Origin: Streptomyces rubradiris
GTDB lineage: Bacteria > Actinomycetota > Actinomycetes > Streptomycetales > Streptomycetaceae
Direction: 5' to 3'
Length of the DNA: 64,000 bases
Assembly (NCBI RefSeq): GCF_016860525.1
Contig: NZ_BNEA01000001.1
Coordinates: 1,629,501 to 1,693,500, forward strand
Position numbers and translations under genes: made by a program. The notes below the pieces were generated by a model. That model saw nothing but the letters and a program-made list of their open reading frames with translations. It did no database searches and was not told the origin of the DNA. Shown piece by piece: positions 33,228 through 43,508 of the stretch. Position 1 is the first letter of the stretch. Each line of letters begins with the position of its first letter.

Positions 33228-34133
33228 CTACGTCCCGTACACCCGTCCCGGCGGCTCCGCCCGAGCCAGCAGTCTCCGGGCCGCCTCCCCCGCCCCGGCC
33301 GGTGTCCAGCGGGCGCCCTTGTCGGTGGTGGGACCGGGGCGCCAGCCCTCCATGACGGTGATCCGGCCGCCCTCCGCCTCGAACACCCGGCCGGTCACCC
33401 CGGCGCTCCCGGCCGAGCCGAGCCAGACCACGAGCGGGGAGACGTTTTCGGGTGCCATGGCGTCGAAGCCGGTGGCCGGCGCCGCCATGGCCGTGGCGAA
33501 GGCACGTTCCGTCATACGGGTCCGGGCGGCCGGGGCCACGGCGTTGACCTGGACGCCGTAGCGGGCCAGTTCGGCCGCCGCGACGAGCGTGAGGCCGATG
33601 ATCCCGGCCTTGGCGGCGCTGTAGTTGCCCTGCCCGACCGAGCCCAGCAGACCGGCCCCGCTGCTGGTGTGGACGACCCGGGCGACCGGGGTGCGCCCGG
33701 CCCTGGCCGTGGCCCGCCAGTGGCCGGCGGCGTGCTTGAGCGGCAGGAAGTGACCCTTCAAGTGGACACGGATCACGGCGTCCCAGTCGTCCTCGGTGAG
33801 GTTGACCAGCATGCGGTCGCGCAGGAACCCGGCGTTGCTGACGAGGGTGTCGAGCCGGCCGTAGGTCTCGACGGCGGTGCGGACCAGGCCGGCCGCGCCC
33901 GCGTCGGTGGCGATGTCGGCGCCGTGCGCCACCGCGTCACCGCCCGCCGCCCGGATCTCGGCCACGACGGCGTCCGCCGGGTTCTGCGGGTCCGGCGCGC
34001 CGTCCAGCGCCACGCCGAGGTCGTTGACGACGACCCGGGCGCCCTCGGCGGCGAAGGCCAGGGCATGGGCCCGGCCGAGCCCCCGGCCGGCCCCGGTGAC
34101 GGCGACGACCCGGCCCGCGCAGATACCGCTCAT
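33228..34133 (-). CDS. SDR dehydrogenase, Rv3548c-like (HIP degradation cluster)
   Basis: The 301-residue short-chain dehydrogenase starts at ATG 34133. It has the cofactor loop VVAVTGAGRGLGRAHALAFA, NDLGVALDG, NAGFLRD, the catalytic Ser in VVHTSSGAGLLGSVGQGNYS with the YSAAK motif, and a C-terminal extension EGGRITVMEGWRPGPTTDKG seen in MFE/HSD17B4-type acyl-CoA SDRs. By position and type it corresponds to Rv3548c in the KstR2 regulon. It sits 1 bp behind the next SDR gene and is transcribed leftward from operator 1 (35095-35111). Precise substrate unknown; probably a hydroxyacyl-CoA of the ring C/D pathway. Confidence 0.87.
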   Translation of the reverse strand: MSGICAGRVVAVTGAGRGLGRAHALAFAAEGARVVVNDLGVALDGAPDPQNPADAVVAEIRAAGGDAVAHGADIATDAGAAGLVRTAVETYGRLDTLVSNAGFLRDRMLVNLTEDDWDAVIRVHLKGHFLPLKHAAGHWRATARAGRTPVARVVHTSSGAGLLGSVGQGNYSAAKAGIIGLTLVAAAELARYGVQVNAVAPAARTRMTERAFATAMAAPATGFDAMAPENVSPLVVWLGSAGSAGVTGRVFEAEGGRITVMEGWRPGPTTDKGARWTPAGAGEAARRLLARAEPPGRVYGT

Positions 34134-34134
34134 C

Positions 34135-35046
34135 TCAGCTGTCCTTCCGGGGAGTCGGTACGGGTACGTGGGGCGCGGCGGCGTCCAGGAACGCGGGCCG
34201 TTCCCCGCCGCCGTGCACGTGCAGGCCGGCCCCGCTGATGTACGCGGCGGCGTCGGAGGCGAGGAACACGGCGGCGGCGCCGACGTCGGCGGGGAGCGCG
34301 AGCCGGCCCAGCGGGACGGTGCGAGAGACGGCGGCCGTCCCGTCGGGGCCGCCGTAGTGGAGGTGGGCGAGCTCGGTGTGGACCATGCCGACCACGAGCG
34401 TGTTGACCCGGACCTCCGGCGCCCACTCCACGGCCATGGACGCGGCCAGGCTGGCGAGCCCCGCCTTGGCCGCGCCGTAGGCGGCCGAGCCGGGCGAGGG
34501 ACGGGTCCCGCTGACGCTGCCGATCATCAGAACCGAGCCCCTGCTGCGCCGGAGGTGGTCGTAGGCGGCGAGGGACGCGGTCAGCGGGGTGATCAGGTTC
34601 AGCTCGACGACCTTGGCGTGCCGTTCGGCGCCGGCGTCGGCGAGACGCCGGTGGGGCGTGCCGCCGGCGTTGTTGACCAGGACGTCGAGGCGGGGCAGTC
34701 CGGCGAAGAAGGCGCGGACGGCGGGCGGGTCGCGCAGGTCCAGCGGGACGAAGCCGACGCCGGGCACGGGCCGGTCGGGGGGCCGGCGGGCGCAGGCCAG
34801 GACGTGGGCGCCCGCCTCGGCGAAGGCCCGCGCGATTCCGGCGCCCACGCCCCGGGTGCCGCCGGTGACCACGACCGTCCTGCCGCGCAGTGAGCTGTCC
34901 GCGGGCCGGTCGCCCGCAGGAGGGTTGCCCGCAGGCCGGTCGCCCGCAGGAGGGTTGCCCGCAGGAGGGTTGCCCGCGGGCCGCTGGTCCGCGGGGCTCG
35001 CCGGGCGCTCGTCCGCAGGCCGGTTGTCCACAGGGGGGTTATCCAC
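34135..35046 (-). CDS. SDR oxidoreductase with repeat-encoded N-terminal extension, Rv3549c-like
   Basis: The 303-residue SDR starts at GTG 35046. Residues 1-50 consist of Pro/Ala repeats (DNRPADERPASPADQRPAGN and copies of NPPAG and DRPAG) encoded by a 15-bp minisatellite. The enzyme proper begins at SSLRGRTVVVTGGTRGVGAG, with NNAGG, GSVLMIGSVSGTRPSPGSAA and YGAAK. By order it matches Rv3549c of the mycobacterial KstR2 regulon. The extension looks like a recent sequence expansion; no other ATG/GTG closer to the fold has a good ribosome binding site. It lies immediately upstream of the first SDR gene (1-bp gap) and 86 bp from echA20 across operator 1. Confidence 0.83.
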   Translation of the reverse strand: MDNPPVDNRPADERPASPADQRPAGNPPAGNPPAGDRPAGNPPAGDRPADSSLRGRTVVVTGGTRGVGAGIARAFAEAGAHVLACARRPPDRPVPGVGFVPLDLRDPPAVRAFFAGLPRLDVLVNNAGGTPHRRLADAGAERHAKVVELNLITPLTASLAAYDHLRRSRGSVLMIGSVSGTRPSPGSAAYGAAKAGLASLAASMAVEWAPEVRVNTLVVGMVHTELAHLHYGGPDGTAAVSRTVPLGRLALPADVGAAAVFLASDAAAYISGAGLHVHGGGERPAFLDAAAPHVPVPTPRKDS

Positions 35047-35047
35047 A
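34901..35047. repeat. 15-bp coding minisatellite containing two DnaA-box matches
   Basis: Between 34901 and about 34982 six units alternate GCCCGCAGGAGGGTT and GCCCGCAGGCCGGTC, encoding NPPAG and DRPAG. Diverged units continue to 35047 and end in TTGTCCACA (35024-35032) and TTATCCACA (35039-35047), both fitting the Streptomyces DnaA-box consensus and exactly one repeat period (15 bp) apart. Confidence 0.85.
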
Positions 35048-35094
35048 GGGCCTCCCGCTGGTCCGCGTCGGCTGCTAGCTTCGAAGCCATCGCA

Positions 35095-35111
35095 CCTAAC
35101 AAATGTTTGGT
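35095..35111. promoter_or_regulatory. KstR2-like operator 1
   Basis: CCTAACAAATGTTTGGT lies between the divergent SDR pair and echA20. Its core AACAAATGTTTGGT agrees with the published mycobacterial KstR2 consensus AnCAAGnnCTTGnT at 8 of 10 fixed positions. The reverse complement of the site at 41382-41398 is the same 17-mer with one base different. Confidence 0.7.
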
Positions 35112-35132
35112 GGAAAGGTAGCTGATGCGTCC

Positions 35133-35885
35133 ATGGGTGTCTCCTGTTCGTCCCCGGAAAAGGGGATTTCCGTAGTCACCGTCGACTTCCCGCCGGTCAA
35201 CGCCCTGCCGGTGCGCGCCTGGTTCGCCCTGGCCGAGGCCGTGCGCGAGGCCGGCCGGGACCCGGGGACCCGATGTGTGGTGCTGGCCGCCGAGGGCCGC
35301 GGGTTCAACGCGGGCGTGGACATCAAGGAGATACAGGCGGCCGGGCAGGACGCTCTGATCGGAGCCAACCAGGGCTGCGCGGAGGCGTTCGCGGCGGTCT
35401 ACGAGTGCGGGACACCGGTCGTCGCGGCCGTGCAGGGCTTCTGCCTGGGCGGCGGGATCGGCCTGGTGGGCAACGCGGACGCGGTGGTGGCGAGCGAGGA
35501 CGCCTTCTTCGGGCTGCCCGAGCTGGACCGGGGCGCGCTGGGCGCGGCGACCCACCTGGCCCGGCTGGTCCCGCAGCACCTGATGCGCACGCTGTATTTC
35601 ACCGGGCGCACGGTGAGCGCCGCCGAGCTGCACGGGCACGGCTCGGTGTGGCGGGTGGTCCCGCGCGCCAAGCTGCCGGGTGCGGCGCTGGGGCTGGCCC
35701 GGGAGATCGCCGCGAAGGACGGCCGGCTGCTGCGCATGGCCAAGGCCGCGATCAACGGCATCGACCCGGTCGATGTGCGCCGCAGCTACCGCTTCGAGCA
35801 GGGCTTCACCTTCGAGGCCGGCCTCAGCGGACTGGCCGGCCGGGTCCGCGACACGTTCGGGAAGCAGGGGAAGGAGGGGGCGTAG
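35133..35885 (+). CDS. echA20: Enoyl-CoA hydratase/hydrolase family EchA20 (steroid ring D opening)
   Basis: The 250-residue crotonase-fold protein starts at ATG 35133 (MGVSCSSPEKGISVVTVDFP). It contains PPVNALPVRAWFALAEAV, AEGRGFNAGVDIKEIQAAG, VYECGTPVVAAVQGFCLGGG, GLPELDRGALGAATHLARLV and the C-terminal SYRFEQGFTFEAGLSG. These match what I remember of Mycobacterium tuberculosis EchA20 (Rv3550) almost block for block. That enzyme opens ring D of the HIP-derived CoA ester. A frame upstream of 35133 overlaps the operator and is unlikely to be translated. ipdA follows after the stop without a gap, so the genes are cotranscribed. Confidence 0.9.
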   Translation: MGVSCSSPEKGISVVTVDFPPVNALPVRAWFALAEAVREAGRDPGTRCVVLAAEGRGFNAGVDIKEIQAAGQDALIGANQGCAEAFAAVYECGTPVVAAVQGFCLGGGIGLVGNADAVVASEDAFFGLPELDRGALGAATHLARLVPQHLMRTLYFTGRTVSAAELHGHGSVWRVVPRAKLPGAALGLAREIAAKDGRLLRMAKAAINGIDPVDVRRSYRFEQGFTFEAGLSGLAGRVRDTFGKQGKEGA

Positions 35886-36737
35886 ATGGGCGACAAGACG
35901 ATGACCGCCGAGGAGGTGGTGTCCCGGCTGGCGAGCGGCATGACCCTCGGCATCGGCGGCTGGGGCTCCCGGCGCAAGCCGATGGCGCTGGTCCGGGCGC
36001 TGCTGCGGTCCGGCATCGGCGATCTCACGGTCGTCTCCTGCGGCGGCCCGGACATCGGCATGCTGGCCGCCGCCGGCCGGATCCGCAAGCTGGTCACGGC
36101 CTTCGTCACCCTGGACTCCATCGCGCTGGAACCGCACTACCGTGCGGCGCGCGAGCACGGGGGCCTGGAGCTGACGGAGATAGACGAGGGGATGTTCCTG
36201 TCCGGGCTGCGGGCGGCGGCGCAGCGGCTGCCGTTCCTGCCGGTGCGCGCGGGCATCGGCTCGGACGTCATGCGGGTCAACCCGGAGCTGAGAACGGTGA
36301 CGTCGCCGTACGCGGACGCGGAGACGCTGGTGGCGATGCCGGCGCTGCGGCTGGACGCGGCCCTGGTGCACGTCAACCGCGCCGACCGGCTGGGCAACGG
36401 GCAGTACCTGGGCCCGGACCCGTACTTCGACGACCTGTTCTGCGAGGCGGCGGACGCGGCCTACGTCTCCTGCGAACGGATCGTGGACACCGCGGAGCTG
36501 ACGAAGGCGGCCGGACCGTGGTCGCTGCTGCTCAAACGGCTCGCGGTGACCGGTGTGGTGGAGGCACCGGACGGCGCGCACTTCACGTCCTGCGCCCCGG
36601 AGTACGGCAGGGACGAGGAGTTCCAGCGGTGGTACGCGGCCACGCCCTGGCCGGACTTCGCCGGCCGCTTCCTCGGCGCCGACGAGGCGGCGTACCGGGC
36701 GGCGGTCGGGAAGTGGCGGACGGAGCAGGGACGATGA
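35886..36737 (+). CDS. ipdA: IpdA, alpha subunit of COCHEA-CoA hydrolase (CoA-transferase fold)
   Basis: The 283-residue protein starts at ATG 35886 behind GGAGGGGGCG and directly after echA20. It has the class I CoA-transferase alpha fold: ASGMTLGIGGWGSRRKPMAL, TVVSCGGPDIGMLAAAG, LTEIDEGMFLSGLRAAAQRL, LVHVNRADRLGNGQYLGPDP. GWGSRRKPM and the pairing with ipdB point to IpdAB (Rv3551-3552), a ring C hydrolase that has lost CoA-transferase activity. The stop overlaps the ipdB start (ATGA), as expected for subunits made 1:1. Confidence 0.92.
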   Translation: MGDKTMTAEEVVSRLASGMTLGIGGWGSRRKPMALVRALLRSGIGDLTVVSCGGPDIGMLAAAGRIRKLVTAFVTLDSIALEPHYRAAREHGGLELTEIDEGMFLSGLRAAAQRLPFLPVRAGIGSDVMRVNPELRTVTSPYADAETLVAMPALRLDAALVHVNRADRLGNGQYLGPDPYFDDLFCEAADAAYVSCERIVDTAELTKAAGPWSLLLKRLAVTGVVEAPDGAHFTSCAPEYGRDEEFQRWYAATPWPDFAGRFLGADEAAYRAAVGKWRTEQGR

Positions 36738-37507
36738 GGGCCACCCGCGCCGAGTACTGCGTGATCGCCTGCGCCGAGGCCTGGCGCGGCGCCGGTGAGG
36801 TGCTGGCCTCCCCGATGGGTCTGATCCCGTCGCTGGGCGCGCGGCTGGCCCGGCTCACCTTCGCGCCGGACCTGCTGCTGACCGACGGCGAGGCACTGCT
36901 GGTCCGGCCGGACGGCACCCCGGAGGGCTGGCTGCCCTACCGGCAGCACCTGGAGCTGGTGGCGGGCGGCCGGCGGCACGTGATGATGGGCGCGAGCCAG
37001 CTCGACCGGTACGGCAACCAGAACATCTCCTGCGTCGGCGACTGGGCCCGCCCGCGCAGACAGCTGCTCGGGGTGCGCGGCGCTCCGCTCAACACACTGA
37101 ACAATCCCACGAGTTACTGGGTGCCGAGGCATTCCCGGCGGGTGTTCGTGGAGCGCGTGGACATGGTGTGCGGGGTCGGGTACGACCGGGCGGCCGGTCT
37201 GGGCGGCGCGGCCCGGTACCACCGCGTCGCCCGGGTGGTCACCGACCTCGCCGTCCTGGACTTCGCCACCCCCGACCACTCCATGCGGCTGGTCTCGGTG
37301 CATCCGGGGGTGACCGTCCGGCAGGTCGGGGAGGCGACGGGCTTTCCCCTGAGCGTCCCGGCCGACGTCCCGCCCACCCGCGATCCCGAGGCCGCGGAAC
37401 TACGCCTGATCCGCGAGGTCTTGGACCCGGCGGGTGCCCGGACCCGCGAGGTGCCGGAGAGCACGGCGGCTGACGGAGACCGACACCGGCCCGAGGGACG
37501 GCACTGA
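36734..37507 (+). CDS. ipdB: IpdB, beta subunit of COCHEA-CoA hydrolase
   Basis: The 257-residue partner starts at ATG 36734 in an ATGA overlap with ipdA. It shows RAEYCVIACAEAWRGAGEVL, ASPMGLIPSLGARLARLTFA, HVMMGASQLDRYGNQNISCV and VPRHSRRVFVERVDMVCGVG, as in IpdB (Rv3552). The C-terminal ~15 residues (ESTAADGDRHRPEGRH) are low complexity and of the same make-up as the repeats behind the gene. The stop TGA (37505-37507) overlaps the start of the small frame that leads to ipdC. Confidence 0.92.
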   Translation: MRATRAEYCVIACAEAWRGAGEVLASPMGLIPSLGARLARLTFAPDLLLTDGEALLVRPDGTPEGWLPYRQHLELVAGGRRHVMMGASQLDRYGNQNISCVGDWARPRRQLLGVRGAPLNTLNNPTSYWVPRHSRRVFVERVDMVCGVGYDRAAGLGGAARYHRVARVVTDLAVLDFATPDHSMRLVSVHPGVTVRQVGEATGFPLSVPADVPPTRDPEAAELRLIREVLDPAGARTREVPESTAADGDRHRPEGRH

Positions 37508-37578
37508 TGGAGACCGGCACCGGGTCGAGGGGGCCGGGCCGGATGGGGACCGGCACCGGGTCGAGGGGGCCGGGCCCG
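37507..37578 (+). repeat. Tandem 36-bp duplication
   Basis: Two adjacent 36-bp units, 37507-37542 and 37543-37578, share ACCGGCACCGGGTCGAGGGG and GGCCGGGCC and differ at about two positions near their ends. They lie in the ipdB-ipdC gap and keep the small frame open. Confidence 0.9.
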
Positions 37579-37671
37579 ACGGGGGTCCGTGCCGAGCCGG
37601 GGAACAGCGGGCCGCCGAAGACCCCGCAGAAGGCGACGACGAGCCCGGCGGCGCATGGGACGGAGGGCTGA
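37507..37671 (+). CDS. 54-codon small reading frame bridging ipdB and ipdC
   Basis: An ATG overlapping the ipdB stop (TGATG at 37505-37509) opens a frame that closes exactly on the ipdC start (TGATG at 37669-37673). It encodes METGTGSRGPGR and MGTGTGSRGPGP (a duplicated 12-residue unit), then TGVRAEPGNSGPPKTPQKAT and a short tail ending HGTEG. The composition is Gly/Pro/Thr/Arg-rich, without helix or motif. Double start-stop coupling would keep ribosomes moving from ipdB to ipdC. The 11-bp sequence CTGATGGAGAC occurs at both ends (37504-37514, 37668-37678), so the segment probably arose by duplication at the original ipdB-ipdC junction. A functional peptide is not supported by similarity. Confidence 0.4.
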   Translation: METGTGSRGPGRMGTGTGSRGPGPTGVRAEPGNSGPPKTPQKATTSPAAHGTEG

Positions 37672-38729
37672 TGGAGACGGCGCTGACCCGGCTGGTCGGG
37701 GTGCGGTATCCGATCGTGCAGACCGGGATGGGATGGGTGGCCGGGCCGCGTCTGGTGTCGGCGGCGGCGAACGCCGGTGCCCTCGGCATCCTGGCGTCCG
37801 CGACGATGCCGCCCGGCCGGCTCCGGGAGGCGATACGGGAGGTCCGGTCCCGCACCGGGGCGCCGTTCGGGGTGAACCTGCGGGCCGACGCGGGCGACGC
37901 GGCCGACCGGGTGCGGATCCTGCTGGAGGAGGGGGTCCGGGTGGCCTCCTTCGCCCTGGCCCCCTCCCCCGGGCTGATCGCGGAGCTGAAGGCGGCGGGA
38001 GTGGTGGTGATCCCGTCCGTCGGGGCCCTGCGGCACGCCGAGAAGGTGGCGGCCTGGGGCGCGGACGCGGTGCTGGTGCAGGGCGGCGAGGGCGGCGGGC
38101 ACACCGGCGAGGTGGCGACGAGCGTGCTGCTGCCGCAGGTGGTGGACGCGGTGGGAATCCCGGTCGTGGCGGCGGGCGGCTTCTTCGACGGGCGGGGCCT
38201 GGTGGCGGCGCTGGCGTACGGGGCGGCCGGGGTGGCGATGGGCACGCGGTTCCTGCTCACCTCCGACTCCACGGTGCCGGACGCGGTGAAGGCCCGGTAC
38301 CTCGCGGCGACGGTCCGGGATGTCACGGTGACCCGCGCGGTGGACGGCCTGCCGCACCGGATGCTGCGCTCGGAGCTGGTGACGGCCCTGGAGCGGTCGG
38401 GCCGGCTCCGCGCCCTCGCCCACGCGGTACGGCGGGCGGCGGGCTTCCGGCGGCTGTCGGGGCTGACCTGGCGGCAGTTGCTCCGGGACGGCCTCGCCCT
38501 CCGGCACGGCAAGGACCTGTCCTGGAGTCAGACGCTGCTGGCGGCCAACACGCCGATGCTGCTGAAGTCGGCGATGGTGGACGGCCGTACGGACCTGGGG
38601 GTGATGGCGGCCGGGCAGGTCACCGGGGTGATCGGCGACCTGCCGTCGTGCGCGGAGCTGGTGCAGCGGATCATGAGGGAGGCGGAGGAGGTGCTGACCG
38701 GACTGGAGAAGCTGAGAGGCGCCCGGTGA
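37671..38729 (+). CDS. ipdC: IpdC, flavin-dependent reductase of the nitronate monooxygenase fold
   Basis: The 352-residue TIM-barrel flavoprotein starts at ATG 37671 behind CGGAGGG. METALTRLVGVRYPIVQTGM, GWVAGPRLVSAAANAGALGI, GAPFGVNLRADAGDAADRV, LVQGGEGGGHTGEVATSVLL and VVAAGGFFDGRGLVAALAYG define the NMO-like FMN barrel. The gene follows ipdAB as in Rv3553, which reduces an intermediate of HIP breakdown. Streptomyces carries other NMO-like proteins, so the IpdC call relies mainly on context. It ends convergently with fadA6 31 bp away. Confidence 0.88.
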   Translation: METALTRLVGVRYPIVQTGMGWVAGPRLVSAAANAGALGILASATMPPGRLREAIREVRSRTGAPFGVNLRADAGDAADRVRILLEEGVRVASFALAPSPGLIAELKAAGVVVIPSVGALRHAEKVAAWGADAVLVQGGEGGGHTGEVATSVLLPQVVDAVGIPVVAAGGFFDGRGLVAALAYGAAGVAMGTRFLLTSDSTVPDAVKARYLAATVRDVTVTRAVDGLPHRMLRSELVTALERSGRLRALAHAVRRAAGFRRLSGLTWRQLLRDGLALRHGKDLSWSQTLLAANTPMLLKSAMVDGRTDLGVMAAGQVTGVIGDLPSCAELVQRIMREAEEVLTGLEKLRGAR

Positions 38730-38760
38730 GCCGGGGCGCGGACGGGCTGCGGGCGCCCGG

Positions 38761-39918
<1,158 letters not shown>

Positions 39919-39941
39919 GACAACTCCCTACGGGAAAGGGG

Positions 39942-40553
39942 CTATTCGCGTACGGCGATCCCGTCCAGCACCATCGACAGGTACTGGCGGGCGATCTCCT
40001 CGGGGCTGTGCTTGCCGCCGGGCCGGTACCAGGAGGCGGCGACCCACACGGTGTCCCGGACGAACCGGTAGGTGAGCCGGATGTCGAGGTCCGCGCGGAA
40101 GACCCGCTCGGCGACCCCGCGTTCGAGCGTGCTGAGCCATGCCTTCTCGAACCGGCGCTGGGACTCGGCGAGGAAGGCGAACCGGTCCTGGGCGACGAGC
40201 TGCCGGCTCTCCTTCTGGTAGATCGCGACGGCGGCGCGGTGCCGGTCGATCTCCCGGAAGGACTCGGTGACCAGGGCTTCGAGGGTCTCGCGGGGCCCCA
40301 GCTCGGAGGCGAGGACGGTGTCGTAGCCGTCCCACAGCTCGTCGAGGAAGGTCCGCAGGATCTCCTCGAGCATCGACTCCTTGGAGTCGAAGTGGTAGTA
40401 GAGGCTGCCCGCGAGGATTCCGGCGTGGTCGGCGATCCGGCGGACGGTGGTGGCGTTGTAGCCGTGCTCGGCGAAGACCTCGGCAGCGGTGCTGAGGAGC
40501 TCGCCGCGCCGGGCCGCTGCCGCGGTCACCTGGGGTTTTTTCTTGGTCGGCAC
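39942..40553 (-). CDS. kstR2: KstR2-type TetR repressor
   Basis: The 203-residue regulator starts at GTG 40553 (MPTKKKPQVTAAAARRGELL). The HTH is AAEVFAEHGYNATTVRRIAD HAG-region, followed by AGSLYYHFDSKESMLEEIL. The ligand domain contains YQKESRQLVAQDRFAFLAES and YRFVRDTVWVAASWYRPGGK, which resembles the corresponding block in mycobacterial KstR2 (Rv3557c) closely. KstR2 represses until it binds HIP-CoA. It is transcribed from the ipdF side, whose promoter holds operator 2, so autoregulation is likely. Targets in this window should be both operators. Confidence 0.88.
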   Translation of the reverse strand: MPTKKKPQVTAAAARRGELLSTAAEVFAEHGYNATTVRRIADHAGILAGSLYYHFDSKESMLEEILRTFLDELWDGYDTVLASELGPRETLEALVTESFREIDRHRAAVAIYQKESRQLVAQDRFAFLAESQRRFEKAWLSTLERGVAERVFRADLDIRLTYRFVRDTVWVAASWYRPGGKHSPEEIARQYLSMVLDGIAVRE

Positions 40554-40579
40554 GCACCCATTGTGATCTGCTCCGGCCG

Positions 40580-41365
40580 TCAGGCGTGCTGGCTGCTGAC
40601 GGCGACGACCTCGCCGGTCATGTAGGAGGAGTAGCCGGAGGCGAGGAAGACGATCACGTTGGCCACCTCCCAGGTCCGGGCGGGCCGGCCGAATGCCTCC
40701 CGTTCGGTCAGCTCGGCGAGCAGGCCGGGGGTGGTGACCTTCTCCAGGTGGGGGTGGAGGGCGAGGCTGGGCGCGACCGCGTTGACCCGGACGCCGAACG
40801 CGGCGGCCTCGACGGCCGCGCACCGGGTCAGCGCCATCACCCCGGCCTTGGCGGCGGCGTAGTGGGCCTGTCCGGCCTGGGCGCGCCAGCCGAGGACGGA
40901 GGCGTTGTTGACGATGACTCCGCCGCCGGCCCGGCGCATCGCGCGCAGGGCGGCGCGGGTGCAGCGGAAGGTGCCGCCGAGGGTGACGTCCAGGACGCGG
41001 GACCACTCCTCGTCGGTCATGTCGGCGAGGGCGGAGGTGCCGCCGAGTCCGGCGTTGTTGACGACGACGTCCAGCCGGCCGTGCGCGGCCGTGGCCGTCT
41101 CGAACAGCGCCCGCACCTGGGCGTCGTCGGTGACGTCGCAGGGCGTCGCGGTGACCGCGCCGGGGAACTCCCGGCCCAGTTCCCGCTCGTGCTCCTTGAG
41201 GCGGCGCGGGTGGGCGTCGCTGATCAGCACCCGTGCGCCCTCTTCCAGGAAGCGGCGGGCGGTGGCCGCGCCGATGCCGGTGCCGGCCGCGGCGGTGACG
41301 ACGGCGGTGCGGCCGCGGAGCAGTCCGTGCCCGGGGACGTAGGCCGGGCTCTCGACGCCTGTCAT
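40580..41365 (-). CDS. ipdF: IpdF-type SDR dehydrogenase
   Basis: The 261-residue SDR starts at ATG 41365. VPGHGLLRGRTAVVTAAAGT and GIGAATARRFLEEGARVLIS form the cofactor loop. NNAGLGGTSALADMTDEEWS, VIVNNASVLGWRAQAGQAHY and AAAKAGVMALTRCAAVEAAA match IpdF (Rv3559c) in detail, including the GWRAQ segment and the terminal FLASGYSSYMTGEVVAVSSQ. IpdF oxidises the 5-hydroxy group of 5-OH-HIP-CoA. It is the first gene of the leftward unit with kstR2 and fadA6 and lies 38 bp from the acyl-CoA dehydrogenase start across operator 2. Confidence 0.9.
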   Translation of the reverse strand: MTGVESPAYVPGHGLLRGRTAVVTAAAGTGIGAATARRFLEEGARVLISDAHPRRLKEHERELGREFPGAVTATPCDVTDDAQVRALFETATAAHGRLDVVVNNAGLGGTSALADMTDEEWSRVLDVTLGGTFRCTRAALRAMRRAGGGVIVNNASVLGWRAQAGQAHYAAAKAGVMALTRCAAVEAAAFGVRVNAVAPSLALHPHLEKVTTPGLLAELTEREAFGRPARTWEVANVIVFLASGYSSYMTGEVVAVSSQHA

Positions 41366-41381
41366 AGGGCCACGCTAACCT

Positions 41382-41398
41382 ACCAAACACTTGTTAGG
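41382..41398. promoter_or_regulatory. KstR2-like operator 2
   Basis: ACCAAACACTTGTTAGG lies in the 38-bp gap between the divergent ipdF and acyl-CoA dehydrogenase starts. The reverse strand reads AACAAGTGTTTGGT, matching AnCAAGnnCTTGnT at 9 of 10 fixed positions. It is one base different from operator 1 over 17 bp. Confidence 0.75.
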
Positions 41399-41403
41399 GA
41401 AGG

Positions 41404-42555
41404 GTGGTGACGGCGGTGGACCTGTCGCTCTCCACGGTGGACGAGGAGTTCCGCGCCGAGGCCCGGGCGTGGCTGGCGGCGCATGTGCCGCGCACCCCGC
41501 TTCCGTCCCTGGAGACGGCGGAGGGTTTCGCGGCCCACCGCGCCTGGGAGGCCGAACTGGCCGCGGACCGCTGGTCGGTGGTGTCGTGGCCGGAGCGGTA
41601 CGGCGGGCGGGACGCCGGGCTGCTGCGGTGGCTGGTGTTCGAGGAGGAGTACTGGGCGGCGGGGGCGCCTGGCCGGGTGGGGCAGAACGGGATCAGCCTG
41701 CTCGCGCCGACGCTGTTCGCGTACGGCACCGAGGAGCAGCGCGCGCGGGTGCTGCCGCCGATGGCCACCGGCGAGGTGGTGTGGGCGCAGGCCTGGTCGG
41801 AGCCGGAGGCGGGCTCGGACCTGGCCGCGCTGACCTCCCGGGCGGTGCGGACGGACGGCGGCTGGCTGCTGGCCGGGCAGAAGACCTGGTCCTCGCGGGC
41901 CGCGTTCGCCGACCGGGCCTTCGGCCTGTTCCGCAGCGACCCGGCGGCGCCTGAGCCGCACCAGGGGCTCACGTATCTGATGTTCGACCTCCGGGCCCCC
42001 GGGGTGACGGTCCGTCCGATCGGCAGGCTGGACGGCAGACCGGCGTTCGCGGAGGTCTTCCTGGACGGGGTGTTCGTCCCGGACGAGGACGTGATCGGCG
42101 AGCCGGGGCAGGGCTGGCGGATCGCGATGTCCACGGCGGGCGACGAGCGCGGGATCACCCTGCGCTCCCCGGGCCGCTTCCTGGCCGCCGCCGCGCGGCT
42201 GCGGGAGCTGTGGCGGGCCCAGGGCTCGCCCGCGCACGCCCGGGCCCGGGTCGCCGACGCCCTGGTCCGGGCGCGCGCCTACCAGCTGTTCGCCTACGCC
42301 GCCGTCTCCCGCCTGCTGGAGGGCGCCCGGCTCGGGCCGGAGTCCAGCATGAACAAGGTGTTCTGGTCCGAGCTGGACCTGGCGCTGCACGAGACGGCGC
42401 TGGATCTGCTGGGCCCGGAGGGCGAGCTCGCCGACGGCGCCTGGGCCGAGGGGTACGTCTTCGCGCTGGCCGGGCCGGTCTACGCGGGCACGAACGAGAT
42501 CCAGCGGGACATCGTCGCCGAGCGGCTGCTCGGCCTGCCGAAGGGACGCCGCTGA
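41404..42555 (+). CDS. Acyl-CoA dehydrogenase, FadE30-like subunit
   Basis: The 383-residue flavoprotein has the acyl-CoA dehydrogenase fold with FSTVDEEFRAEARAWLAAHV-like N-terminus (here LSLSTVDEEFRAEARAWLAA), WPERYGGRDAGLLRWLVFEE, QAWSEPEAGSDLAALTSRAV and the C-terminal FAD/CoA block GPVYAGTNEIQRDIVAERLL. FadE30 (Rv3560c) lies at the same place in mycobacteria but on the opposite strand. Starts GTG 41404, 41407 and 41416 are all possible; GGGAAGGG precedes them by 0-12 bp. The next gene starts inside the stop (TGATG), so the two products probably form one heteromeric enzyme, as known for steroid FadE pairs. Confidence 0.85.
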   Translation: MVTAVDLSLSTVDEEFRAEARAWLAAHVPRTPLPSLETAEGFAAHRAWEAELAADRWSVVSWPERYGGRDAGLLRWLVFEEEYWAAGAPGRVGQNGISLLAPTLFAYGTEEQRARVLPPMATGEVVWAQAWSEPEAGSDLAALTSRAVRTDGGWLLAGQKTWSSRAAFADRAFGLFRSDPAAPEPHQGLTYLMFDLRAPGVTVRPIGRLDGRPAFAEVFLDGVFVPDEDVIGEPGQGWRIAMSTAGDERGITLRSPGRFLAAAARLRELWRAQGSPAHARARVADALVRARAYQLFAYAAVSRLLEGARLGPESSMNKVFWSELDLALHETALDLLGPEGELADGAWAEGYVFALAGPVYAGTNEIQRDIVAERLLGLPKGRR

Positions 42556-43508
42556 TGCGCTTCCACCCCGACGCCGGGCAGCGGGCGTTCGCCGGTTCGC
42601 TGCACGCGCTGCTGACCGCCGCCGGCACCCCGGCGGTGGCCCGGGACTGGGCCCGCGGCGACCACGCGCGCGGGCGCGCGCTGTGGTCGCGGATCGCCGG
42701 GGCGGGGGTGTTCGGGCTCGCGGTGGCGGAGGAGTACGGCGGGGCGGGGCCGCATCCGGTGGACCTGGCGGTGGCCTTCGTGGAGCTGGGCCGGCACGCG
42801 GTGCCCGGTCCGCTGGCCGAGACGGTCGGGGCGGCCGTGCTCCTCGCCGGATCGGCGTCGGCGCGGCGCTTCCTGCCCGAGCTGGCGGCCGGGACGGAGC
42901 TGGCGACGGTGGCGGCGCCCGGGGGCTGGGCCGTCGACGGCGACGCGGCCTCGGTGCGGCTGCGCCCGGCGGCCGAGGGCCTGTATCTGTCCACGGCGCC
43001 GCCCGGCCCGGCGCGCCGTTCCCTGGACCCGGCCCGCCGGCTGACCCGGCTCGCCCCCGCCGGTGAACTCCTGCGCGCCGCCGCGCCGTACGACCGGGCG
43101 CTGCTGTGGACCCGGCTGGCCACCGCCGCGCAGGCCCTCGGCGTGGGGCTGGCGCTGCTCGACCGGACGGTGGACCACGTGCGGCGCCGCACCCAGTTCG
43201 GCGTGCCCGTCGGCTCCTTCCAGGCCGTCAAGCACCGCCTGGCCGACGCGAAGACCGCCCTGGAGTTCGCCCGCCCCCTGGTGTTCGGCGCGGCGGTGTC
43301 CCTGCGCCCGGCGGAGGTGGCCGCCGCGAAACTGGCCGCGGGCGAGGCGGCGTACACGACGGCGCGGACGGCGCTGCACCTGCACGGCGCGATCGGGTAC
43401 ACGGCGGAGTACGACCTGTCCCTGTGGCTGACCAAGGCCCGGGCGCTGCGCTCGGCGTGGGGCACGCCCGAGGAGTGCCGGGACCTGGTGCTCGCCCAAG
43501 GGCTCTAG
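42555..43508 (+). CDS. Acyl-CoA dehydrogenase-like partner subunit
   Basis: The 317-residue protein starts at ATG 42555 in a TGATG overlap with the preceding gene. It is shorter than a self-sufficient acyl-CoA dehydrogenase. It has GVFGLAVAEEYGGAGPHPVD, the helical domain RTQFGVPVGSFQAVKHRLAD and LHLHGAIGYTAEYDLSLWLT. It lacks the usual middle beta-domain motif with WxT/S. Such divergent subunits form alpha2beta2 enzymes with a FadE30/28-like partner in steroid side-chain and ring degradation. Its stop TAG overlaps the convergent merR stop (CTAG at 43505-43508). Confidence 0.82.
   Translation: MRFHPDAGQRAFAGSLHALLTAAGTPAVARDWARGDHARGRALWSRIAGAGVFGLAVAEEYGGAGPHPVDLAVAFVELGRHAVPGPLAETVGAAVLLAGSASARRFLPELAAGTELATVAAPGGWAVDGDAASVRLRPAAEGLYLSTAPPGPARRSLDPARRLTRLAPAGELLRAAAPYDRALLWTRLATAAQALGVGLALLDRTVDHVRRRTQFGVPVGSFQAVKHRLADAKTALEFARPLVFGAAVSLRPAEVAAAKLAAGEAAYTTARTALHLHGAIGYTAEYDLSLWLTKARALRSAWGTPEECRDLVLAQGL

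Follow-up and report, generated by a model that had tools for sequence, protein, structure and literature searches.

A cluster of eleven genes in Streptomyces rubradiris, at positions 33,228-43,508 of the 64,000-nucleotide stretch analysed here (contig NZ_BNEA01000001.1, positions 1,629,501 to 1,693,500; hereafter the window), corresponds to the KstR2 regulon of mycobacteria and rhodococci, which serves the degradation of steroid rings C and D. On the strength of its sequence we propose that this module is probably a working but split C/D-ring pathway, which would receive a ready-made bicyclic acid, either HIP (an acid bearing a propanoate side chain) or a relative of it. The genes for FadD3, FadE30 and FadE33, which the cluster lacks, have homologues in an unlinked second locus of the same genome, and we found no intact gene for KshA, KstD or HsaC, three key enzymes of rings A and B. 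Numbers beginning with C, G and L are our own handles for contigs, genomes and loci.

The eleven-gene module and its putative operators

All eleven reading frames are open and follow the order SDR1-SDR2 on the minus strand (SDR, short-chain dehydrogenase), EchA20-IpdA-IpdB-IpdC on the plus strand, FadA6-KstR2-IpdF on the minus strand and FadE31-FadE32 on the plus strand (Table 1), in a host genome of 9.05 Mb with 22 contigs and a completeness rating of 100%, whose IpdB shares 98% identity with one from Streptomyces rubradiris. In reciprocal BLAST searches whose two sides comprised only the window genes and those in the cluster region of Aldersonia kunmingensis (L085/L133), 11/11 window genes pair with a collinear counterpart at 50-68% identity, at the very positions where a first-pass annotation, made from the letters alone, had placed eleven genes matching the KstR2 regulon nearly in order. 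The same annotation had called the whole a KstR2-type HIP cluster in a Streptomyces, and this is borne out by IpdA, IpdB and KstR2, which by sequence are the matches of structurally solved Rhodococcus and mycobacterial proteins and stand far above the next family in score, and by two operator-like boxes described below. The NCBIfam equivalog cut-offs are passed by SDR2, EchA20, FadA6 and IpdF and a subfamily cut-off by SDR1, none of the five models being named for the HIP pathway; the scan of IpdA, IpdB and KstR2 returned no informative model.

Short-chain dehydrogenases, crotonases and thiolases form large families, a single SDR family accounting for 104 matches in this genome, which would favour ordinary beta-oxidation paralogues with no HIP pathway at all. 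We reject this explanation as extremely improbable, since it is contradicted by the ordered counterparts, the regulator, the boxes and the structure matches; the counterparts of ipdAB, ipdC, ipdF, echA20 and fadA6 stand together in the window cluster with that of KstR2. Moreover, the gene order is kept in 40 other loci of the genus, the exceptions being inserted genes in five, a missing SDR2 in five and a missing KstR2 in three, and the arrangement in the window is therefore not due to chance. The ratios of nonsynonymous to synonymous substitution (dN/dS) of the eleven genes, estimated in this GC-rich DNA by a simple counting method, range from 0.11 to 0.50 against five relatives; against G181, which is very close, they lie at 0.20-0.68. 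Such values speak against a dead relic.

Both divergent promoters of the cluster, SDR2/EchA20 and IpdF/FadE31, carry a putative KstR2 operator, AACAAATGTTTGGT and AACAAGTGTTTGGT respectively, which recalls the mycobacterial KstR2 motif AnCAAGnnCTTGnT (PMC3068626). At up to two mismatches this motif has 28 matches in the window, where 5.2 would be expected, and 26 of the matches lie elsewhere than at the two promoters; it is therefore the position and conservation of the boxes, not their count, that carry weight. In Streptomyces the box mostly reads AACAA(A/G)(T/C)GTTTGGT, a form which both window boxes match exactly and which, at up to one mismatch, occurs exactly twice per locus in 41 other loci (82 copies in all, L177 included), namely 40 of about 20 kb and the 31-kb locus of BHT-5-2. 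A match at up to three mismatches was found in 83 of the 84 promoter regions of the window, the 40 genus loci and BHT-5-2, the single miss falling in L177 because gene calls overlapped there. When the window was shuffled 20 times with a Markov model, none appeared; as the Streptomyces form was derived from these same loci, the mycobacterial motif is the only independent test. No separate box lies just 5' of kstR2.

Table 1. Genes of the C/D-ring module and operator-like boxes in the window
Feature	Positions	Strand	Basis and remarks
SDR1, short-chain dehydrogenase of the Rv3548c type; proposed to act on the HIP side chain as hydroxyacyl-CoA dehydrogenase	33228-34133	-	NCBIfam PRK07791 471 bits, cut-off 373; Aldersonia reciprocal best 65%
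SDR2, Rv3549c-type short-chain dehydrogenase	34135-34872	-	PRK07856 350 bits, cut-off 255; Aldersonia reciprocal best 59%; start uncertain, open frame extends to 35046
KstR2 operator-like box, divergent SDR2/EchA20 promoter	35098-35111	+	2 mismatches to mycobacterial motif
EchA20, predicted HIEC-CoA hydrolase (ring D opening)	35133-35885	+	PRK07938 396 bits, cut-off 260; Aldersonia reciprocal best 65%
IpdA, predicted COCHEA-CoA hydrolase alpha subunit (ring C opening)	35886-36737	+	PDB 6co6_A 325 bits; next non-IpdA (glutaconate CoA-transferase) 81
IpdB, predicted COCHEA-CoA hydrolase beta subunit	36734-37507	+	PDB 6co6_B 291 bits; next non-IpdB (glutaconate CoA-transferase) 61
IpdC, 5-OH HIC-CoA reductase homologue	37671-38729	+	Aldersonia reciprocal best 62%; PF03060 NMO, scored on the longer frame 37434-38729
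FadA6, thiolase	38761-39918	-	PRK07801 692 bits, cut-off 591; Aldersonia reciprocal best 68%
KstR2, TetR-type repressor	39942-40553	-	Solved KstR2 proteins: PDB 2ibd 227 bits, 4w97 (KstR2) 200 bits; next TetR 74
IpdF, predicted 5-oxo/5-OH dehydrogenase	40580-41365	-	PRK07831 434 bits, cut-off 336; Aldersonia reciprocal best 64%
KstR2 operator-like box, divergent IpdF/FadE31 promoter	41382-41395	-	1 mismatch to mycobacterial motif
FadE31, acyl-CoA dehydrogenase alpha-type subunit	41404-42555	+	Aldersonia FadE31 65% (472 bits), FadE30 35% (222 bits); FadE31 clade 100/100
FadE32, acyl-CoA dehydrogenase beta-type subunit (predicted MOODA-CoA dehydrogenase component)	42555-43508	+	Aldersonia FadE32 reciprocal best 50%; IpdE2 model 142 bits (other FadE32s 125-138, FadE33s 237-286)

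The missing genes, the second locus and rings A and B

The two acyl-CoA dehydrogenases at the end of the cluster had been taken for a FadE30-like pair and the FadE31-33 set for absent. This has to be corrected: the identities to the Aldersonia cluster, in which FadE30, FadD3, FadE31, FadE32 and FadE33 all lie together, and for the first gene also its place in a tree, rule out a FadE30 pair and make the two genes FadE31 and FadE32. The tree comes with a warning of a possible false joining of two long branches, neither being FadE30. It follows that FadD3, FadE30 and FadE33 are the ones not found in the window cluster, the absence of FadD3 having been recognised from the start. Since FadE30 and FadE33 are the IpdE1 and IpdE2 subunits that dehydrogenate 5-OH-HIP-CoA (PMC8708139), the absentees form one functional unit, that of the activation of the HIP side chain and its first dehydrogenation. 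FadD3 is also absent from the cluster stretch of about 20 kb in 40/40 relatives. Among 41 IpdB-positive genomes, a FadE30 of 59-65% identity lies only outside the cluster in 38 and only inside it in three; for 32 of these 38, listed coordinates place the outside copy at a distance of 23-50 kb from FadD3 or Ltp2, the other six having none listed, and no FadE30 above 42% identity was found in the eight IpdB-negative genomes tested. The inside and outside copies thus seem to replace one another, in a sample that leans towards window-like genomes.

The suggestion that the missing genes are kept elsewhere proved right for all three, whose homologues lie within C15:4638451-4665466. They belong to a block (C15:4630548-4665466, about 35 kb, 32 called genes) that is unlinked to the module, largely conserved in G255, G005 and G348 and partly so in G318. 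The FadD3 homologue (C15:4663862-4665466) shares 49% identity with Aldersonia FadD3, the next paralogue reaching 38%, and scores 773 bits with the NCBIfam FadD3 model (cut-off 657), Aldersonia FadD3 itself scoring 749. The FadE30 homologue (C15:4638451-4639599) shares 62% identity (417 bits) with the in-cluster FadE30 of BHT-5-2 and falls inside the FadE30 clade of the tree (94/97), and the FadE33-like gene (C15:4653943-4655343) reaches 213 bits with the IpdE2 model, against 237 and 286 for in-cluster FadE33s. The locus further encodes two thiolase-fold/OB-fold pairs. In one of them an Ltp2-type protein, which scores 331 bits with PDB 6ok1 and 575 bits with NCBIfam PRK07855 (cut-off 469), stands beside an OB-fold partner gene. 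Two more acyl-CoA dehydrogenases, a cyclase-type hydrolase, a CoA ligase and an amidohydrolase whose nearest matches are DitZ and PtmU3 are encoded there as well. The 'lipid-transfer protein' of 6ok1 we take to be Thermomonospora Ltp2; an open-licence literature search on DitZ gave nothing on the subject. Apart from FadD3, FadE30, FadE33, the Ltp2-like protein and an HsaB-like flavin reductase (197 bits, cut-off 230), the second-locus genes are at most 48% identical to the compared steroid clusters, many of them having no match.

The promoters of this locus share a palindrome of their own, CTGACGGnCCGTCAG, of which eight copies with up to one mismatch, each shortly upstream of a called gene, lie within C15:4632095-4672138 and five or six in the equivalent stretches of four relatives; the shuffle control, run at up to three mismatches only, gave 30 copies in 100 kb against 18.6 expected and 25 in the largest of 20 shuffles. 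KstR2 boxes were sought there and rejected: 100 kb around the locus hold none of the Streptomyces form at up to two mismatches, and just two hits with three mismatches were seen. We regard the stretch C15:4630548-4676595 (L191, L129, L130) as a catabolic locus that is conserved and has a promoter palindrome of its own. The window, too, holds one perfect copy of this palindrome, CTGACGGCCCGTCAG, at 758-772, far from the module.

The genome-wide search for kshA, hsaC, fadD3 and mce4-like genes that the first-pass annotation had advised returned fadD3 on C15, and otherwise a broken kshA, no hsaC and six MlaD-domain (mce) matches in a row (C15:986.7-992.6 kb). The only KshA relative, at C1:171414-172222, shifts frame and has lost most of its first 100 residues; no Streptomyces-form box at up to two mismatches was found in the 60 kb around it. 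KstD has no match at E<=1e-20 in the genome, about 400 bp of it being left as a remnant near C1:181611-182013 (L024), and the best genome-wide match to HsaC has an E value of just 9.7e-11. G181, the nearest relative found, has two intact KshA genes and KstD at C13:185884-201873, and the broken gene is consistent with a fusion of two such KshA genes with loss of the intervening stretch. Together the relic and the remnant on C1 look like a scar where genes for steroid ring B have been lost. As grounds for abandoning its reading the annotation had named unrelated beta-oxidation paralogues as best matches, or a genome devoid of steroid genes together with a lack of induction by steroid-derived substrates. 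These grounds apply by half: the best matches are the true counterparts, but intact kshA, kstD and hsaC were not found in the genome.

Among 39 IpdB-positive genomes without HsaC, the host included, KstD is kept in 18 and an intact KshA in G181 alone; both are present in 5/5 HsaC-positive genomes tested. The KstD homologues in the HsaC-negative genomes have 49-57% identity (for example G197 C1:5067788-5069422). G181 also carries, at C2:315716-321990 (L214), a separate meta-cleavage-like cluster whose HsaC relatives (39-41%) and HsaD relative (39%) could pass wrongly for steroid genes.

Proposed pathway and alternative substrates

The model we propose takes every reaction step, the binding of KstR2, its effector and the substrate from what is described in other actinobacteria, the HIP reactions having been worked out in mycobacteria and rhodococci (PMC5380842). 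HIP or a close bicyclic relative would enter the cell ready-made, and its CoA ester, formed by the unlinked FadD3, would free KstR2 from both divergent promoters. The unlinked FadE30 and FadE33 (IpdE1 and IpdE2) would begin the beta-oxidation of the propanoate side chain, the removal of which would be completed by a hydratase, the SDRs of the window and FadA6. Ring C would then be oxidised by IpdF and IpdC, ring D opened by EchA20 and ring C by IpdAB, after which FadA6 would take off acetyl-CoA and FadE31/FadE32 would start on the linear remnant. The broken KshA would seem to close the known 9,10-seco route, and the likeliest substrate would therefore be a HIP-type acid left by steroid-degrading neighbours, a candidate to which we give somewhat less than an even chance. 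Such food from neighbours is suggested by the title of a paper of 1977, cited in PMC5380842, which speaks of HIP metabolites formed by Streptomyces rubescens. Of the readings considered, a live and split C/D-ring pathway, fed below the ring A/B stage, has the best support.

Several observations weigh against it. The FadE33-like gene of the second locus shares just 40-45% identity with in-cluster FadE33s and misses the IpdE2 cut-off of 450, as do the in-cluster FadE33s, while a neighbouring dehydrogenase scores 161. The second locus holds 29 called genes beyond FadD3, FadE30 and FadE33, some of them not catabolic; its Ltp2-type protein and DitZ/PtmU3-like hydrolase fit a different or larger substrate. 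Being free of boxes and furnished with a different palindrome, it gives no support to a control by KstR2, and in 3/40 relatives (L163, L164, L165) both boxes are kept in a stretch of about 20 kb with no KstR2 gene. The co-occurrence counts given below ignore shared ancestry, and the function as a whole is read from sequence rather than from expression or biochemistry.

The enzyme surplus of the second locus and its close co-occurrence with IpdB make it a serious, if rather unlikely, possibility that this locus prepares the substrate, feeding the module a bicyclic CoA ester whose source would be a terpenoid, a secosteroid or another hydrindane rather than a four-ring steroid, its FadD3, FadE30 and FadE33 acting there. 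The shared palindrome, the two thiolase-fold/OB-fold pairs, the two extra dehydrogenases, the CoA ligase and the two hydrolases all speak for such a route, and the Ltp2-like gene accompanies IpdB in far more genomes than HsaC does; the ring-opening enzymes of the module are nevertheless conserved as in steroid degraders, and the second-locus genes beyond the five named have low identity to the compared steroid clusters, or no match there. Extended to the genus, this becomes a generalisation that we put forward quite tentatively: many, perhaps most, Streptomyces would have an unrecognised two-regulon route into the C/D module in which rings A and B are never opened, the second locus, with its Ltp2-type protein, DitZ/PtmU3-like hydrolase, own dehydrogenases, FadD3, FadE30 and FadE33, converting a non-steroid or an already-opened polycycle from soil to the bicyclic CoA ester.

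Two further explanations, both improbable in our view, turn on the ring A/B genes. The broken KshA and the shortened KstD, both intact in G181, could mean that the cluster is the remnant of a complete steroid pathway now being lost in this strain, but the eleven frames are open, their dN/dS ratios are low for a relic, both boxes are exact to the Streptomyces form and IpdB is kept without HsaC (E<=1e-70) in 239 of the 277 IpdB-positive genomes. Alternatively, whole steroids might be degraded by ring A/B enzymes too divergent to be recognised, as the Ltp2-type protein, the HsaB-like flavin reductase, the six-gene mce run and the KstD genes kept by other HsaC-negative genomes could suggest; against this stands a genome rated complete in which KstD and HsaC were not found at the thresholds given and KshA is broken, HsaA and HsaD not having been searched genome-wide. 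We retain the split pathway fed with a ready-made bicyclic acid.

Distribution in Streptomyces and relation to known clusters

Across 392 genomes of the genus, which named IpdB matches identify as Streptomyces, IpdB (E<=1e-80) is present in 277, FadD3 (E<=1e-150) in 272 and the Ltp2-like gene (E<=1e-120) in 267. IpdB and FadD3 occur together in 267 genomes and are both absent from 110, with 15 discordant (IpdB alone in 10, FadD3 alone in 5); IpdB and the Ltp2-like gene occur together in 265 and are both absent from 113, with 14 discordant (12 and 2). HsaC (E<=1e-70) was found in just 38 genomes, every one of them IpdB-positive, so that 239 of the 277 lack it at that threshold. Weak matches were dropped (13 to IpdB, E 5e-47 to 6e-23; five to FadD3, E 1e-116 to 1e-131; HsaC above E 1e-70), and a few of the FadD3 matches that were kept, with E values of 1e-155 to 1e-200, could be of the in-cluster kind. 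The 40 genus loci were chosen from listed, mostly single-contig IpdB matches and lean towards window-like genomes, for which reason the in-cluster FadE30 in 3/41 is not a frequency for the genus.

The lower half of the pathway is thus marked in most of these genomes and the upper half in few. In the excerpts of the open-licence literature consulted, the module is nowhere described as common in Streptomyces; steroid breakdown is called rare there, being absent from 55/57 genomes in one survey (PMC4810484), and ksdD, hsaA, hsaC and hsaB genes are listed for Streptomyces SCUT-3 (PMC7181669). If the model is true, the degradation of rings C/D and that of rings A/B would be pathways that travel apart, which gives reason to revisit the 1977 paper on HIP and Streptomyces and points to a soil substrate not named in the literature consulted.

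The window cluster resembles the KstR2 regulon of Mycobacterium and Rhodococcus (Rv3548c-Rv3564; PMC5380842, PMC3068626) in its eleven counterparts, which are arranged as in Aldersonia, in KstR2 and in the boxes at the two corresponding divergent promoters; it differs in the form of the box, in lacking a separate one just upstream of kstR2 and in having FadD3, FadE30 and FadE33 at a second locus with another palindrome. The complete steroid clusters carried by a minority of the genus (38/392 by HsaC) contain the same module. In G318, an example of them, ten of the eleven genes are 71-86% identical to those of the window, the window FadE32 being closer to that of BHT-5-2, and the module is joined to KstD, HsaABCD, KshAB, FadE30 and FadE33, with FadD3 24 kb from ipdB; unlike such clusters, the window strain has no HsaC at E<=1e-70 and neither FadE30 nor FadD3 in the cluster. 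The Saccharopolyspora hirsuta cluster likewise has fadD3 outside the C/D cluster but keeps fadE30 and fadE33 within it, and full cholesterol degradation is reported for it (PMC8708139). The thiolase-fold protein of the second locus, whose gene adjoins that of an OB-fold partner, is similar in sequence to the steroid side-chain aldolase Ltp2-ChsH2 (PDB 6ok1), the difference being that it sits in a locus without ring A/B genes.

In the contig scan for module loci, the best 80 of 269 were kept and genes were called in 12, with few calls in L037, L038 and L041 because the simple caller suits high-GC DNA. One contig, filed as Acidobacteriaceae (L036), carries a KstR2 cluster of actinobacterial type that includes FadE30, a frame the size of FadD3 and an extra EchA-type gene, which would reflect either horizontal transfer or a mis-binned contig.

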